Shown here one piece after another: positions 15,305 to 26,984 of a stretch of 29,670 nucleotides of DNA. This stretch comes from a virus. The notes under the pieces were generated by a model, which searched no databases, was not told where the DNA came from, and saw only the letters and a list, made by a program, of their open reading frames with translations. The position numbers and the translations under genes are program-made. Location of the stretch: the IMG/VR virus record IMGVR_UViG_3300025889_000656, positions 1 through 29,670 of that record. The stretch is one strand, 5' to 3'. How positions within the stretch are numbered: position 1 is the stretch's first letter; the number at the start of each line of letters is the position of its first letter.

Positions 15305-15793
15305 ATGACAATTGAAGAATACAAAGAAATATTAAAAAACGGAGAAAGAACTGAGTGGTATGGTGAAATGGTACCAGTGGTACTAATAACACCAGTAGTT
15401 AAAGCTATTGCTGATATGATGATAAAAAGTATCAGTGATTTAGAATTTGAACTTGAGGAGACCACAACAGCGACCAAAAAGGCTAGTAAAAAAAGGTATT
15501 TAAACGATTTGTGGAATACCGTAAAAATACTACCTTACAGACAAAATGGTTTAATACACGATTTTACTTTGGCTAAATATAAAAGAATAATGGCTGAAAT
15601 AGAAGAAGAGGAAAAAAAGAATAAAAAAACGAAACCTAAAACAACAAGAACACGTAAAAAGAAAGTAGTAGAAAAAACAGAAACTAAAGAAGACGTTAAA
15701 ACAGAAAAAATTGAAGAAGAGGTTAAGGTTGAAAAACCTAAAAAACCTAGAACAAGAAAAACAAAAAATAGTAATTTAATATTTGGTAAATAA
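15305..15793 (+). CDS. Hypothetical protein with basic tail, upstream of sigma factor
   Basis: A 162-residue protein. The first about 95 residues form a helical domain (MTIEEYKEILKNGERTEW; LWNTVKILPYRQNGL). The rest is a low-complexity Lys/Glu/Thr tail with repeated basic patches (KTKPKTTRTRKKK, KPRTRKTK) and a short hydrophobic end, NSNLIFGK. The gene ends just before the sigma-factor start, so the two are probably made together. A co-activator role like T4 gp33, with the hydrophobic tail binding the sliding clamp or polymerase, is possible but is inference from position only. Confidence 0.7.
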   Translation: MTIEEYKEILKNGERTEWYGEMVPVVLITPVVKAIADMMIKSISDLEFELEETTTATKKASKKRYLNDLWNTVKILPYRQNGLIHDFTLAKYKRIMAEIEEEEKKNKKTKPKTTRTRKKKVVEKTETKEDVKTEKIEEEVKVEKPKKPRTRKTKNSNLIFGK

Positions 15794-15794
15794 T

Positions 15795-16619
15795 ATGAAA
15801 AACATGACAAACACTAAGAGATTTATTGACACATCGGAAGAATCAATTTCAAAATATCTTAAAGATGTTAGAAAAATTGATATGATTTCAGCGGATGAGG
15901 AAGCTGAATTAGCTAAACTTGTAGCTGAGGGTGACCCACAAGCTACAGAAAAATTAGTTAACTCTAATCTTAGGTTCGTTATATCCGTGGCTAAAGACTA
16001 TCAAAACCAAGGACTACCTTTATCCGATTTAATTTCGGAAGGTAACTATGGTTTGATTAAGGCTGCACAAAAGTTTGACCCGACTAGGGGGTTTAGATTT
16101 ATTTCTTACGCTGTGTGGTGGGTTAAACAATCTATCCTACAATCACTAAACGACAACTCAAGAACCGTTAGGTTGCCAGTCAACATCACAAACCAAATTA
16201 GTAAGGTTAAAAAAGAGATTGCTAGATTTGAACAGGAGAATGGTAGAAAAGCTACAGATTCAGATTTAGATATGTCTGTTATGAATCACCCAACATGTGG
16301 TTCTCTTAACGATAAAATCAACGAGGATGGTGATGAAGTTTTAGATATCGTATCTGATGATTCATTTGTTAGACCTGATGAAGATGTATATGGTGAGGAT
16401 GTTCTTAAAGATGAATTAGAAAAAACATTGTCCGTACTTTCTGAAAGAGAGAAGAAGATTATTGAAATGTATTTTGGTATGGATGGTAGTTCTATGACAT
16501 TAGAACAAATAGGTGACGAATATGGTCTTACTAAAGAGAGAATCCGTCAAATTAAAGAAAAGGCCTTAAGAAAGTTAAAAAACAACTGTACGAACCTTTT
16601 TGATTTCATGTATAAATAA
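15795..16619 (+). CDS. Phage RNA polymerase sigma-70 factor, Bacteroidetes primary-type
   Basis: A 274-residue sigma factor. The frame opens at a TTG at 15783, but the ATG at 15795 (MKNMTNTKRF) is a more likely start. Region 1.2 is SISKYLKDVRKIDMIS; region 2 is LRFVISVAKDYQNQGLPLSD through FISYAVWWVKQSI (2.3) and RTVRLPVN (2.4/3.0); region 4.2 is the HTH MTLEQIGDEYGLTKERIRQI. This closely follows the short Bacteroidetes primary sigma (which also lacks region 1.1). The stretch between region 3.0 and the DIVSDDSF linker is shorter and much altered, so the sigma-3 domain seems reduced. It likely directs host RNA polymerase to phage promoters. It is followed 6 nt later by the Sir2 gene. Confidence 0.92.
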   Translation: MKNMTNTKRFIDTSEESISKYLKDVRKIDMISADEEAELAKLVAEGDPQATEKLVNSNLRFVISVAKDYQNQGLPLSDLISEGNYGLIKAAQKFDPTRGFRFISYAVWWVKQSILQSLNDNSRTVRLPVNITNQISKVKKEIARFEQENGRKATDSDLDMSVMNHPTCGSLNDKINEDGDEVLDIVSDDSFVRPDEDVYGEDVLKDELEKTLSVLSEREKKIIEMYFGMDGSSMTLEQIGDEYGLTKERIRQIKEKALRKLKNNCTNLFDFMYK

Positions 16620-16625
16620 TAGATA

Positions 16626-17345
16626 ATGAAAATAGTAGTTTTTACAGGGGCAGGAGTGTCCAAAGAATCTGGTATAGATACATTTAGAGATAGTGACGGT
16701 ACTTGGGAAAAACATTCTGTTAAGGATGTTGCAACACCTGATGGTTGGAAAAAGGATAGAGAACTTGTGTTAGATTTCTACAACGCTAGACGTAATCAGT
16801 TGTCTGAGATTGAACCTAATGAGGCTCATAAACTTTTAGCTGAGTTAGAAAAAGAACACGATGTAACCATCATAACACAAAATGTGGACGACTTACATGA
16901 AAGAGCCGGTTCAACTAAGGTTTTACATTTACACGGTGAACTTACTAAAGCTCAAAGTTCTTTAGATAATAAATTAGTTTATCACGTTGGATACGAACCA
17001 ACAAAAATCGGTGATAAATGTGATAAAGGTTCACAATTAAGACCACACGTTGTTTGGTTTGGTGAATACCCTAATAATATTCACGAGGCTTATGATGTTA
17101 TTAGTGAATGTGATGTATTATTGATTATAGGTACAACGTTATTCATTGAGTATACGACACAGATGTTAGGTTCTGTTAGAAGTTTACATAACTCTAATAT
17201 GGGAGTGGCAGATGTTTATTTTATTGACCCAAACCCAACAACTATATTAGACCATAGGGTTAAAAACATTAAATATATTAAAGAATCAGCCACAGTCGGG
17301 GTTAAAAAATTTATTGAAGAATTAAATGAATTAGTTGGCCAATAA
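16626..17345 (+). CDS. Sir2/CobB-like NAD-dependent protein deacylase, zinc cysteines lost
   Basis: A 239-residue sirtuin. FTGAGVSKESGIDTFR (6-21) is the NAD-binding signature, TQNVDDLHERAG the second one, His103 in LHLHGE the catalytic base, and VVWFGEYP with FIDPNPT completes the Rossmann part. FYNARR (51-56) keeps the Tyr-x-x-Arg pair that in CobB and SIRT5 binds acidic acyl groups, so desuccinylase-type activity is likely. The zinc module is abnormal: between residues 105 and 140 only Cys132 remains of the usual four cysteines. The gene follows the sigma factor closely. Possible roles are acyl-mark removal on host enzymes or NAD-linked counter-defence; neither can be chosen from sequence. 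Confidence 0.88.
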   Translation: MKIVVFTGAGVSKESGIDTFRDSDGTWEKHSVKDVATPDGWKKDRELVLDFYNARRNQLSEIEPNEAHKLLAELEKEHDVTIITQNVDDLHERAGSTKVLHLHGELTKAQSSLDNKLVYHVGYEPTKIGDKCDKGSQLRPHVVWFGEYPNNIHEAYDVISECDVLLIIGTTLFIEYTTQMLGSVRSLHNSNMGVADVYFIDPNPTTILDHRVKNIKYIKESATVGVKKFIEELNELVGQ

Positions 17346-19847: not shown

Positions 19848-20450
19848 ATGAATATAGACAAAAAAACTTATTTATTACCTGAAAAAAATTATTATAAAGC
19901 TGAATACACTAAAAAACAAATAGTGGTAGGTCATAGTGGTAGAAAAAATATGTACCATTATTCATCTTGGATAAATAGGTTAAACGGTGAGTACAAAAAG
20001 ACCGCCGCTTTTACAATAGATAAAGACGGTAAAATATACCAACACTACGACCCAAAGTACTATAGCGATTATATAACAATACACGATATGGCACCTTTTA
20101 CAATACCAATTGTTTTAACAAACGTTGGTTGGTTAAACAGGGATAACCTAAATGATAGATATTACGATTGGTTAGGTCATAGTTATGTTAAAGAAGATGA
20201 AGAGGTTACTTATTCTAAATGGAGAAATCACTCTTATTGGGAAAATTACACTAACGAACAATTAAATTCATTAAGAAATCTAACAGATTATTTATGTGAT
20301 GAGTTTAATATAAAGAATGATTGTATTGGCCACACCGTTTTTAATGAAGACGTTGATATTTATGAAGGAATAGCTTTTAAAAGCAATTATTATCAAGAGT
20401 CAACTGACATTAGTCCAGCTTTTGATATGGATATATTTAAAATAAGTTAA
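19848..20450 (+). CDS. Divergent peptidoglycan amidase (Amidase_2/PGRP-like)
   Basis: A 200-residue protein resembling T7-lysozyme-type zinc amidases. QIVVGHSGR supplies the first zinc His, AFTIDKDGKIYQHYDP the strand pair after it, CIGHTVF the second His, and TDISPAFDMDIF matches the usual DPGPAFDW region with the third ligand Asp. Such enzymes cut the amide between MurNAc and L-alanine. No signal peptide is present. It lies 3 nt after a membrane-protein gene and upstream of the spanin-like pair, so it may be a lysis enzyme. The second amidase in the window, at 24928, is more typical; the division of labour is unknown. Confidence 0.7.
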   Translation: MNIDKKTYLLPEKNYYKAEYTKKQIVVGHSGRKNMYHYSSWINRLNGEYKKTAAFTIDKDGKIYQHYDPKYYSDYITIHDMAPFTIPIVLTNVGWLNRDNLNDRYYDWLGHSYVKEDEEVTYSKWRNHSYWENYTNEQLNSLRNLTDYLCDEFNIKNDCIGHTVFNEDVDIYEGIAFKSNYYQESTDISPAFDMDIFKIS

Positions 20451-24927: not shown

Positions 24928-25809
24928 ATGGTTTTAAAAAAAGGTAGTAGAGGAGAACAAGTAAAACAACTACAAGAATTTCTAGGTCTTAAAGCTGATG
25001 GTATATTTGGTCATGGTACTGAAAGAGCTGTTAAAGATTTTCAAAAAGCTAATGGTATACGGTTTGATGGTATTGTTGGACCACAAACATGGGACTTAAT
25101 GGGTCTAGCGACAACAGATACATCAGAATCAATTTATGTAACTGAGAACGATTTAACCATTGAAAGGCATTATTTACCTAAAGGTGAATATAAAGAAGGC
25201 CCAACAGACAAAGAATATTTATTTTTACATCATACCGCTGGGTGGCACAACCCGTATAAATGTATTGACCAATGGGGTAGAGATACTAGAGGTTCAATAG
25301 CTACAGAATTTGTATTGGGTGGCCCATCAATTAAAGGCAATGATTTTGAATACGACGGTAAGATGTTACAAGCTTTCCCCGATGGTGGTTATGGTTGGCA
25401 CTTAGGTAAAAACGGTTCACAACATATGCACACACATTCGGTTGGTTTAGAAATATGTAACTTTGGTTATATAGAGAATGGTAAGACTTATGCTGGTACA
25501 AAAGCGGATTCTTCACAAATAGTTAGATTAGCCAAACCGTTCAGAGGACACCAAGAGTGGCATAGATACTCAAACACACAGATAGAGGCAACTAGAAAGT
25601 TGATACTACATATAGCTGAAAGAGATAATATAGATGTTAGGGACGGTTTAATTAGAACGATTAAAGAAAAAGGTGTTGACGCTTTTGAATTTAACGAAAA
25701 GGCTTATTACGGTAAAATAAAAGGGATGTGGGCACATACTAATGTTCGTAAAGATAAGACTGATATCTTTCCACAAGCTGAAATGATTGATATGTTATTA
25801 AGTTTATAA
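24928..25809 (+). CDS. Endolysin: peptidoglycan-binding domain plus N-acetylmuramoyl-L-alanine amidase
   Basis: A 293-residue protein. Residues 1-60 are a PG_binding_1 domain (GSRGEQVKQLQEFLGLKADG, IFGHGTERAVKDFQ, VGPQTWDLMG). Residues about 85-275 are an Amidase_2 domain: FLHHTAGWHNP with the first zinc His, GYGWHLG, HTHSVGLEICNFG, and a C-terminal MWAHTNVRKDKTDIFPQ with the second His and the Lys/Asp of the active site. It cleaves MurNAc-L-Ala bonds. No signal peptide, so release needs a holin. The last 22 codons have a diverged second copy at 26416-26484, beyond the homing endonuclease gene that starts 2 nt after this stop codon; this tail, including zinc-site residues, may have arrived with the insertion. 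Confidence 0.9.
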   Translation: MVLKKGSRGEQVKQLQEFLGLKADGIFGHGTERAVKDFQKANGIRFDGIVGPQTWDLMGLATTDTSESIYVTENDLTIERHYLPKGEYKEGPTDKEYLFLHHTAGWHNPYKCIDQWGRDTRGSIATEFVLGGPSIKGNDFEYDGKMLQAFPDGGYGWHLGKNGSQHMHTHSVGLEICNFGYIENGKTYAGTKADSSQIVRLAKPFRGHQEWHRYSNTQIEATRKLILHIAERDNIDVRDGLIRTIKEKGVDAFEFNEKAYYGKIKGMWAHTNVRKDKTDIFPQAEMIDMLLSL

Positions 25810-25811
25810 TT

Positions 25812-26411
25812 ATGGTAATTTATAAAGCAACATCTAAAACTAGTGGTAAATCTTATATTGGTAAAACTACCAATACCTTAAAACAAAGGATTGGTGAACA
25901 TAATAGAAAATCTATAAAATCTAAACATACAAATCATTTCCACAATGCTATAAAAAAATATGGTAAAGATGATTTTATATGGGAAATTTTAGATAGTTGT
26001 GATAATGAGATTGAATTAAATTTACTTGAAATTAAGTATATCAATACATATGAGAATGGTTATAACCTATCATTAGGTGGTGAAGGTCAAACTGGGTATA
26101 AATATACGGAACAACATTCTAAAAAAATGAGTGAAAGTATCAAAAAAGCGTATGAGGAAGGTAGAAAAAAATCAGTATTCGACACTATGACAGATGAAAG
26201 TATAAAAAAAATAAGGGAGGGGGCCATTAAATGGGCTAAAGAAAATACCATAGGTGAAAAAAATGGTATGTGGGGTAAAGGTAAAAAAATAATGATTGAT
26301 GGTAAGATATTTAATAATATGAGGGAAGCTGCTGAAGAGTTGAATGTACATAAAAAAACAATTCAATATAGGTTGAATTCTAATAACTTTAAAAATTATG
26401 AACGTTTATAA
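25812..26411 (+). CDS. GIY-YIG homing endonuclease with NUMOD DNA-binding modules
   Basis: A 199-residue mobile endonuclease. VIYKATSKTSGKSYIGKT carries the GIY (here I-Y) and YIG motifs, Arg26 in LKQRIGEH the catalytic Arg, Glu73 in LLEIKYINTY the metal-binding Glu, and Asn85 in GYNLSLGGEG. Residues about 95-140 resemble NUMOD3 (HSKKMSESIKKAYEEGRKK) and about 160-195 NUMOD1 (KIFNNMREAAEELNVHKKTI). Such genes spread by cutting phage alleles that lack them. It starts 2 nt after the amidase stop, leaving no room for a 5' intron segment. It ends in a different frame over the start of the leftover amidase tail. Confidence 0.93.
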   Translation: MVIYKATSKTSGKSYIGKTTNTLKQRIGEHNRKSIKSKHTNHFHNAIKKYGKDDFIWEILDSCDNEIELNLLEIKYINTYENGYNLSLGGEGQTGYKYTEQHSKKMSESIKKAYEEGRKKSVFDTMTDESIKKIREGAIKWAKENTIGEKNGMWGKGKKIMIDGKIFNNMREAAEELNVHKKTIQYRLNSNNFKNYERL

Positions 26412-26484
26412 AACCAATACTAGAAAAGATAAAACAGATTTATTCCCACAACAGGAATTGATAGATATGTTATTATCTATTTAA
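26398..26484 (+). pseudogene. Displaced, diverged copy of the amidase C-terminal tail
   Basis: In one frame (ATG at 26398) this reads NTRKDKTDLFPQQELIDM then LLSI and stop. The intact amidase ends NVRKDKTDIFPQAEMIDM then LLSL and stop. Over 22 residues 17 are identical, while codons differ at many synonymous positions (cgt/aga, aag/aaa, act/aca, ttt/ttc, att/ata, agt/tct). It is therefore a homologous but long-diverged tail, separated from the gene body by the homing endonuclease. It overlaps the last codons of the endonuclease gene. A 28-residue peptide could be made from it, but a remnant is more likely. Confidence 0.85.
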
Positions 26485-26513
26485 TTATTTAATATGGGTA
26501 GTATATTTTTATT

Positions 26514-26984
26514 ATGGAAAAAAGAATTTTAAATACTATCAACCTGATTGAATATGTTTCTAGACCTATGAAAAAGGAAGATGTGTTATTATTATATAGA
26601 GTAAATAATGTAACACCTGAAAGGACAGAACTTTATTTAGACTTTGTTAAATCACTATTCAAACTAGTTACATCGACCTATTTAGGGGATGATATTATGG
26701 ATGATAAAGAAATAAAAAAACACTTTAATTGGTGTTGGTCAAAGGTTTTAAATAATTTTAGAAAAGAACATATATATTTTGACGATAACGTTGAAATGTA
26801 TTCTTACTTTAACTCATTGTTTACAGAATTTTTTTATCAAGAAGAAGACAAATCAGAAAGTAATATAAAAGAACTTATGAATTTTTGGGTAAATTCTTTT
26901 AAGTATGAACCTATAAAAACTAGGTCAGAATTAGAAACATTTTTCGATTTATACAAACTTTTTGATAAAAGTATTCATGTGTAA
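26514..26984 (+). CDS. Conserved phage hypothetical protein
   Basis: A 156-residue, all-helical protein (INLIEYVSRPMKKEDVLLLY; DFVKSLFKLVTSTYLGDD; FNWCWSKVLNNFRKEH). No catalytic motif. It looks like a protein that recurs in Bacteroidetes and marine phages (recollection only). A TATATTTTTATTATG sequence before its ATG resembles the AT-rich motif. First of a run of short same-strand genes up to 28462. Confidence 0.75.
   Translation: MEKRILNTINLIEYVSRPMKKEDVLLLYRVNNVTPERTELYLDFVKSLFKLVTSTYLGDDIMDDKEIKKHFNWCWSKVLNNFRKEHIYFDDNVEMYSYFNSLFTEFFYQEEDKSESNIKELMNFWVNSFKYEPIKTRSELETFFDLYKLFDKSIHV

Follow-up and report, generated by a model that had tools for sequence, protein, structure and literature searches.

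The analysed stretch of DNA (the window) comprised positions 1 to 29,670 of the IMG/VR record IMGVR_UViG_3300025889_000656, 29,670 nt from an uncultured phage. All elements of the locus described here lay on the plus strand. A complete amidase gene encoding 293 aa (24928–25809), recognized by ORF calls, the domains PF01471 and PF01510 and a fold match, ended in a segment that we termed tail A (25732–25809). Tail A was taken to start at codon A269, an approximate boundary set by residue deviations. The amidase stop codon TAA was followed by two bases (TT) and then by the ATG of an ORF of 199 aa (25812–26411), identified by ORF calls, PF01541 and PHROG 314 as a GIY-YIG homing endonuclease gene. 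Directly behind its stop codon (TAA, 26409–26411), a second amidase tail appeared, tail B (26410–26484). Tail B started at the endonuclease stop codon, was in the amidase reading frame and carried a stop codon of its own; its first homologous codon was ACC at 26413. The next gene (26514–26984) encoded 156 aa of unknown function. We also observed a 28-aa ORF (26398–26484) whose ATG at 26398 was inside the last codons of the endonuclease gene and which ran in frame through tail B. Elsewhere in the window, a gene for a phage-encoded RNA polymerase sigma factor (15783–16619) was followed by one for a Sir2-like NAD-dependent deacetylase (16626–17345; PHROGs 351 and 2162).

The endonuclease matched the GIY-YIG family PF01541 over residues 2–85 (E = 1.3e-10) and PHROG 314, annotated as 'homing endonuclease' (7e-31). 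The catalytic domain was thus present, and Tyr4, Tyr15, Gly17 and Asn85 were invariant in the alignment of the protein. Its C-terminus showed a weak match to the DNA-binding domain of I-TevI.

The amidase consisted of a PG_binding_1 domain (PF01471) and an AmpD-like Amidase_2 catalytic domain (PF01510). Its AlphaFold model (pLDDT 87) gave Z scores of up to 14.6 against zinc amidases of the AmpD type, and the alignments reached residue 293. In the tail, His270, Arg274, Lys275, Asp276, Lys277, Asp279 and Pro282 were invariant among 23 diverse relatives. In AmpD-type enzymes, the lysine and the aspartate of the K-x-D motif are catalytic and zinc-binding residues. Since Lys277 and Asp279 are invariant and the K-x-D motif has this role, loss of the tail would very probably inactivate the amidase, and a replacement tail would very probably rescue it. 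The window also contained a second, shorter amidase-like gene (19848–20450). We considered it as a source of tail A and rejected it, as the similarity amounted to just 29% over 53 residues located upstream of the tail.

Tail A reads TNVRKDKTDIFPQAEMIDMLLSL before its stop codon (25738–25809), and tail B reads TNTRKDKTDLFPQQELIDMLLSI before its own (26413–26484). The two were identical at 18 of 23 residues and at 50 of 69 nucleotides, with a longest identical run of 12 nt, and a different codon was used at 7 of the 17 identical residues other than methionine. Compared across the endonuclease, the tails gave a similarity of 42.4 bits. The original prediction had described two tails around an endonuclease, sharing 17 of 22 residues and differing at synonymous codons. 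Sequence and ORFs confirmed the arrangement, the count was correct, and the recoding was borne out by the codon and nucleotide figures given above. Its further claim that the replaced tail holds active-site and zinc-ligand residues proved well founded, given the invariant Lys277 and Asp279 in an AmpD-like zinc amidase fold.

We collected 80 amidase relatives from viral contigs and 19 more with a C-terminal query. None of the fetched viral-contig relatives had an endonuclease or a second tail behind the amidase. In the nearest relative, L001 (amidase 77% identical in amino acids), the homologue of the window gene at 26514–26984 started 38 nt past the amidase stop codon, with no insertion. The same neighbour directly followed an uninterrupted amidase gene in L103. 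In L091, six genes after the likewise uninterrupted amidase gene were collinear with the window, again with no insertion; for four of them the match came from sequence, for two from size and position, and L091 also had an upstream relative. Judged by this gene order, L001, L091 and L103 are representatives of the insertion-free allele, so that the site occupied by the endonuclease in the window is empty in its relatives. The empty sites placed the insertion point at approximately codon 271, within the conserved catalytic tail.

The insertion-free amidases also served to identify the native tail. By amino acid sequence, 77 of 80 were closer to tail B, none was closer to tail A, and three were ties. 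At the 19 bases that differ between the tails, L001 matched only B at 13 and only A at 4 (p = 0.049). The nucleotide vote across all relatives (44 for B, 27 for A, 12 ties) leaned weakly to B; the comparison spans only 23 codons. Leu280 of tail B was found elsewhere in L001 only, and Ile293 in L091 and the distant L106 only, whereas Ala269, Val273, Ile280 and Met286 of tail A were absent or rare in 83 relatives. Moreover, at columns conserved to at least 95%, the window amidase with tail A deviated at 4 of 19 from residue 269 on, whereas only one of the 100 such columns in the body deviated (p = 0.002). The divergent relatives L103 and L106 likewise deviated at 4 of 19 tail columns, so the oddness of tail A is supporting and not decisive. 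Because of the amino acid votes, the unusual residues common to tail B and L001 or L091, and the odd residues of tail A, the identification of tail B as the stranded native tail is supported, with modest support from nucleotides. The same comparisons support the view that tail A arrived with the endonuclease or diverged beside it. Tail B has lost neither its stop codon nor any strongly conserved residue, which suggests that it fell out of use recently. The original prediction had expected tails of insertion-free relatives to resemble 26416–26484 more closely than 25744–25809 and had named, as outcomes that would speak against it, relatives resembling tail A and a spliced amidase mRNA joining the body to 26416. 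The former expectation agrees with the amino acid votes; at the amino acid level none of the 80 tails favoured A, and neither Rfam nor folding revealed an intron. Its central claim, an endonuclease insertion that brought a divergent tail and stranded the original one, is supported by the empty-site relatives and the tail comparison.

We then asked how often gene ends are duplicated around such endonucleases. Endonuclease scans of viral contigs, together with eight annotated phage regions, yielded 203 distinct GIY-YIG genes, 182 of them independent at 80% nucleotide identity. For each, 1.2 kb on either side of the endonuclease were compared in translation, and a locus passed if the similarity reached 28 bits and one copy directly adjoined the endonuclease stop codon. 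Nine of 182 loci did so, compared with none of 1452 mismatched flank pairs used as the control; by this measure, the similarity between tails A and B is beyond chance. In an earlier, smaller control of 406 pairs, a single pair, from related reductase genes, had passed by chance. Inspection of the nine left seven of the 182 loci, the window among them, as divergently coded duplicates of gene ends, three of tails and four of heads. The other two tails belonged to a portal protein gene (L189, PF16510), where the second tail ran from the endonuclease stop codon and 9 of 12 identical residues were recoded, and to a gene of unknown function (L263), the weakest case, with 42% amino acid identity. At the head loci (an RNA ligase gene, PF09511, in L127, and genes in L326, L203 and L254), the endonuclease was preceded by an orphan head, and its stop codon coincided with, or lay just before, the start of the intact gene. 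Nucleotide identity between the copies was 40–74% across the seven loci, with longest identical runs of 5–12 nt; the six loci other than the window had identities of 0.40–0.74 and runs of at most 8 nt.

Among the seven, the native copy was assigned at the window locus only. Relatives of the L326 gene were about 45% identical, too distant to discriminate between the copies; phage records held one distant relative of the L189 gene and none of the L203 and L254 genes. Two loci that passed the score filter were not counted. In L120 (2431–3530), the endonuclease was flanked on either side by repeat domains that resemble each other and may bind DNA, which is not a gene-end duplication, and L269 (2409–3320) had a near-identical nucleotide repeat that was not recoded. 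The L269 repeat may date from a more recent event or may surround the start of a gene. Annotated phage or phage-like records contributed 23 endonucleases, none of which was flanked by a gene-end duplication. Likewise, 80 loci in cellular genomes gave no convincing case, the matches being low-complexity or near-identical nucleotide repeats. Two other arrangements were observed along the way. In Vibrio phage VP-1 (MH363700.1; L371, 2485–3202), a GIY-YIG endonuclease is located within the annotated large-terminase gene, and its flanks resemble each other (38.5 bits) and look like intein splicing domains. In L085 (1398–6305), a DNA polymerase III alpha-like gene is interrupted by a GIY-YIG gene, either in an intron or as a split gene, beside what appears to be the conserved LGD-IDID motif of the polymerase gene.

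Several other explanations of the window locus have to be weighed. Homing endonucleases of the GIY-YIG family are often located in introns, and tail B is intact and in the amidase frame, so a group I intron or a similar element carrying the endonuclease might join the amidase body to tail B at the RNA level, with the mature amidase using tail B. The tail A stop codon and the endonuclease start are, however, separated by two bases, the homology of tail B begins at the endonuclease stop codon, and the protein is already completed by tail A. In an Rfam scan of the window no family reached the gathering cut-off, and around the insertion even E values up to 10 gave no intron but just two spurious miRNA/snoRNA matches. 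The folding stability of 25700–26500 was no better than that of shuffled sequences (z = −0.43). Neither the Rfam scan nor the folding thus revealed a group I intron core, in line with the remark in the original prediction that amidase and endonuclease leave no room between them for an intron ribozyme, and we regard splicing as extremely improbable. It is also hard to credit, if a little less so, that a free-standing endonuclease gene was simply inserted past the amidase stop codon, with tail B as an incidental flank from the donor or the product of a chimeric assembly. The endonuclease does sit between two stop codons, and metagenome contigs can be chimeric. Nevertheless, the insertion-free relatives match B and not A, B adjoins the native downstream gene, and six unrelated contigs have the same architecture at other genes. 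The junction between the endonuclease and tail B, moreover, has no shared sequence that could cause a false join.

A more serious alternative concerns the origin of tail A, which could have been copied from the same gene at insertion and then have diverged in place by escape selection or drift, instead of coming from another phage. No donor of tail A was found in viral contigs with the C-terminal query or in prokaryote genomes with a degenerate DNA pattern, a negative result that speaks for divergence in place; the motif HTNVRKDK occurs in the distant relatives L105 and L106, the remainder of whose tails differs. Moreover, Ala269, Ile280 and Met286 alter fixed or nearly fixed residues of the family, a pattern that selection acting on the DNA site could produce. 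On the other hand, 19 of the 69 bases separate the two tails, a distance similar to that between either of them and the tails of other species, and tail B, with its stop codon and strongly conserved residues intact, points to selection that lasted until recent times. An old duplication would be difficult to square with an undecayed tail B, and we therefore consider divergence in place unlikely, while giving it more weight than the two explanations above. Sliding identity to the relatives gave no clear step in the amidase body, and the breakpoint was marked only by the residue deviations from 269 on.

The reading that we prefer, and hold to be quite likely on the sequence data, is that a free-standing GIY-YIG cassette was inserted in the 3′ end of the phage's lysis-type amidase gene. 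On this reading, the cassette comprises two parts, first the divergent tail A up to and including the stop codon and then the endonuclease gene; the amidase is completed by the former, and the native tail B is left stranded beyond the latter. In the mechanism that we propose, alleles without the insertion would be cleaved by the endonuclease within the native tail, at or close to the codon-271 junction. Homology for the ensuing recombinational repair could be provided by the amidase body to one side of the break and by tail B with the downstream genes to the other, so that tail A and the endonuclease would be copied in together and the amidase kept whole. The junction of the amidase body with tail A would no longer be a good cutting site, as A differs from B in codons and in some residues. 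The A/B repeats may also be too dissimilar to recombine, and the cassette would thus not be deleted. In this scheme, it is the sequence difference between A and B that would confer both resistance to re-cutting and retention of the cassette. Similar events may take place at gene ends in other phages, where related cassettes carry a replacement tail or head.

The same architecture has been reported from the mitochondria of Glomus sp., where atp6, atp9, cox2 and nad3 carry an inserted C-terminus and an endonuclease ORF (mORFs), of the GIY-YIG type in the case of atp9 (PMC3630166). The native C-terminus is stranded downstream and is closer to the relatives (91–98% versus 64–81% nucleotide identity) (PMC3630166). 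The atp6 gene of Allomyces macrogynus is cited there as the first report of the architecture (PMC3630166). As in the mORFs, the endonuclease ORF in the window is located near the 3′ end of a gene and flanked by two copies of that end, of which the inserted first copy completes the gene and the downstream copy is the native, stranded one (77 to 0 in amino acids; in nucleotides, 13 to 4 against L001 and 44 to 27 overall). Unlike the mORFs, the window element resides in a phage, and related phage loci replace heads as well as tails. The nucleotide support in the window is weaker, the relatives are more distant, and the hybrid amidase is known from sequence alone. By analogy, the window element appears to work like the fungal mORFs; we do not claim common descent.

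Among phage elements, passages of a review on T-even mobile elements describe free-standing GIY-YIG endonucleases (the Seg family) with intronless homing and co-conversion of flanks, as well as gene-disrupting cases, mobE in nrdA and mobA in gene 60, where the gene is split (PMC2988022). Like the Seg genes, the window endonuclease gene lies outside introns and beside a conserved phage gene; it carries a duplicated gene end, whereas mobE and mobA split their genes. The passages retrieved by keyword from that review do not mention a duplicated gene end (PMC2988022). In those retrieved from a survey of homing endonucleases in phages, the insertions are intergenic, intronic or gene-splitting, and no duplicated gene end is described (PMC10448857). 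With I-TevI-type endonucleases of group I introns, the window protein shares the GIY-YIG domain and the weak match to the I-TevI DNA-binding domain; unlike them, it has no intron, and the gene would be kept whole by a replacement tail and not by splicing. Synthetic 'cleave and rescue' elements, such as those of PMC7951863, similarly combine a nuclease against an essential gene with a recoded, uncut version. The window element differs in being a natural phage element at the target site itself, and the likeness is an analogy with no shared origin. We found no phage report of a gene-end-replacing endonuclease architecture in open-access full text.

With our results, an architecture known mainly from fungal mitochondria is extended to phages and, beyond gene tails, to gene heads. 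Free-standing homing endonucleases of phages have mostly been described from sites between genes, from introns or inteins, or from genes that they split. The window suggests another way of living in an essential gene, in which the element brings a replacement for the piece that it breaks. We tentatively raise the possibility that 'cut-and-complete' homing cassettes form a general class in phages, targeting conserved, essential gene ends and carrying a recoded head or tail; the targets would include the lysis amidase, the portal protein, RNA ligase and others. If so, each homing event would insert an endonuclease and swap in a cut-resistant gene end, which would explain how the best-conserved residues could be targeted and the phage still survive. 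The cassettes would then be natural recoded-rescue elements, a counterpart to the engineered ones, that reshuffle gene ends between phages, and patchwork gene ends would be predicted in phage evolution.
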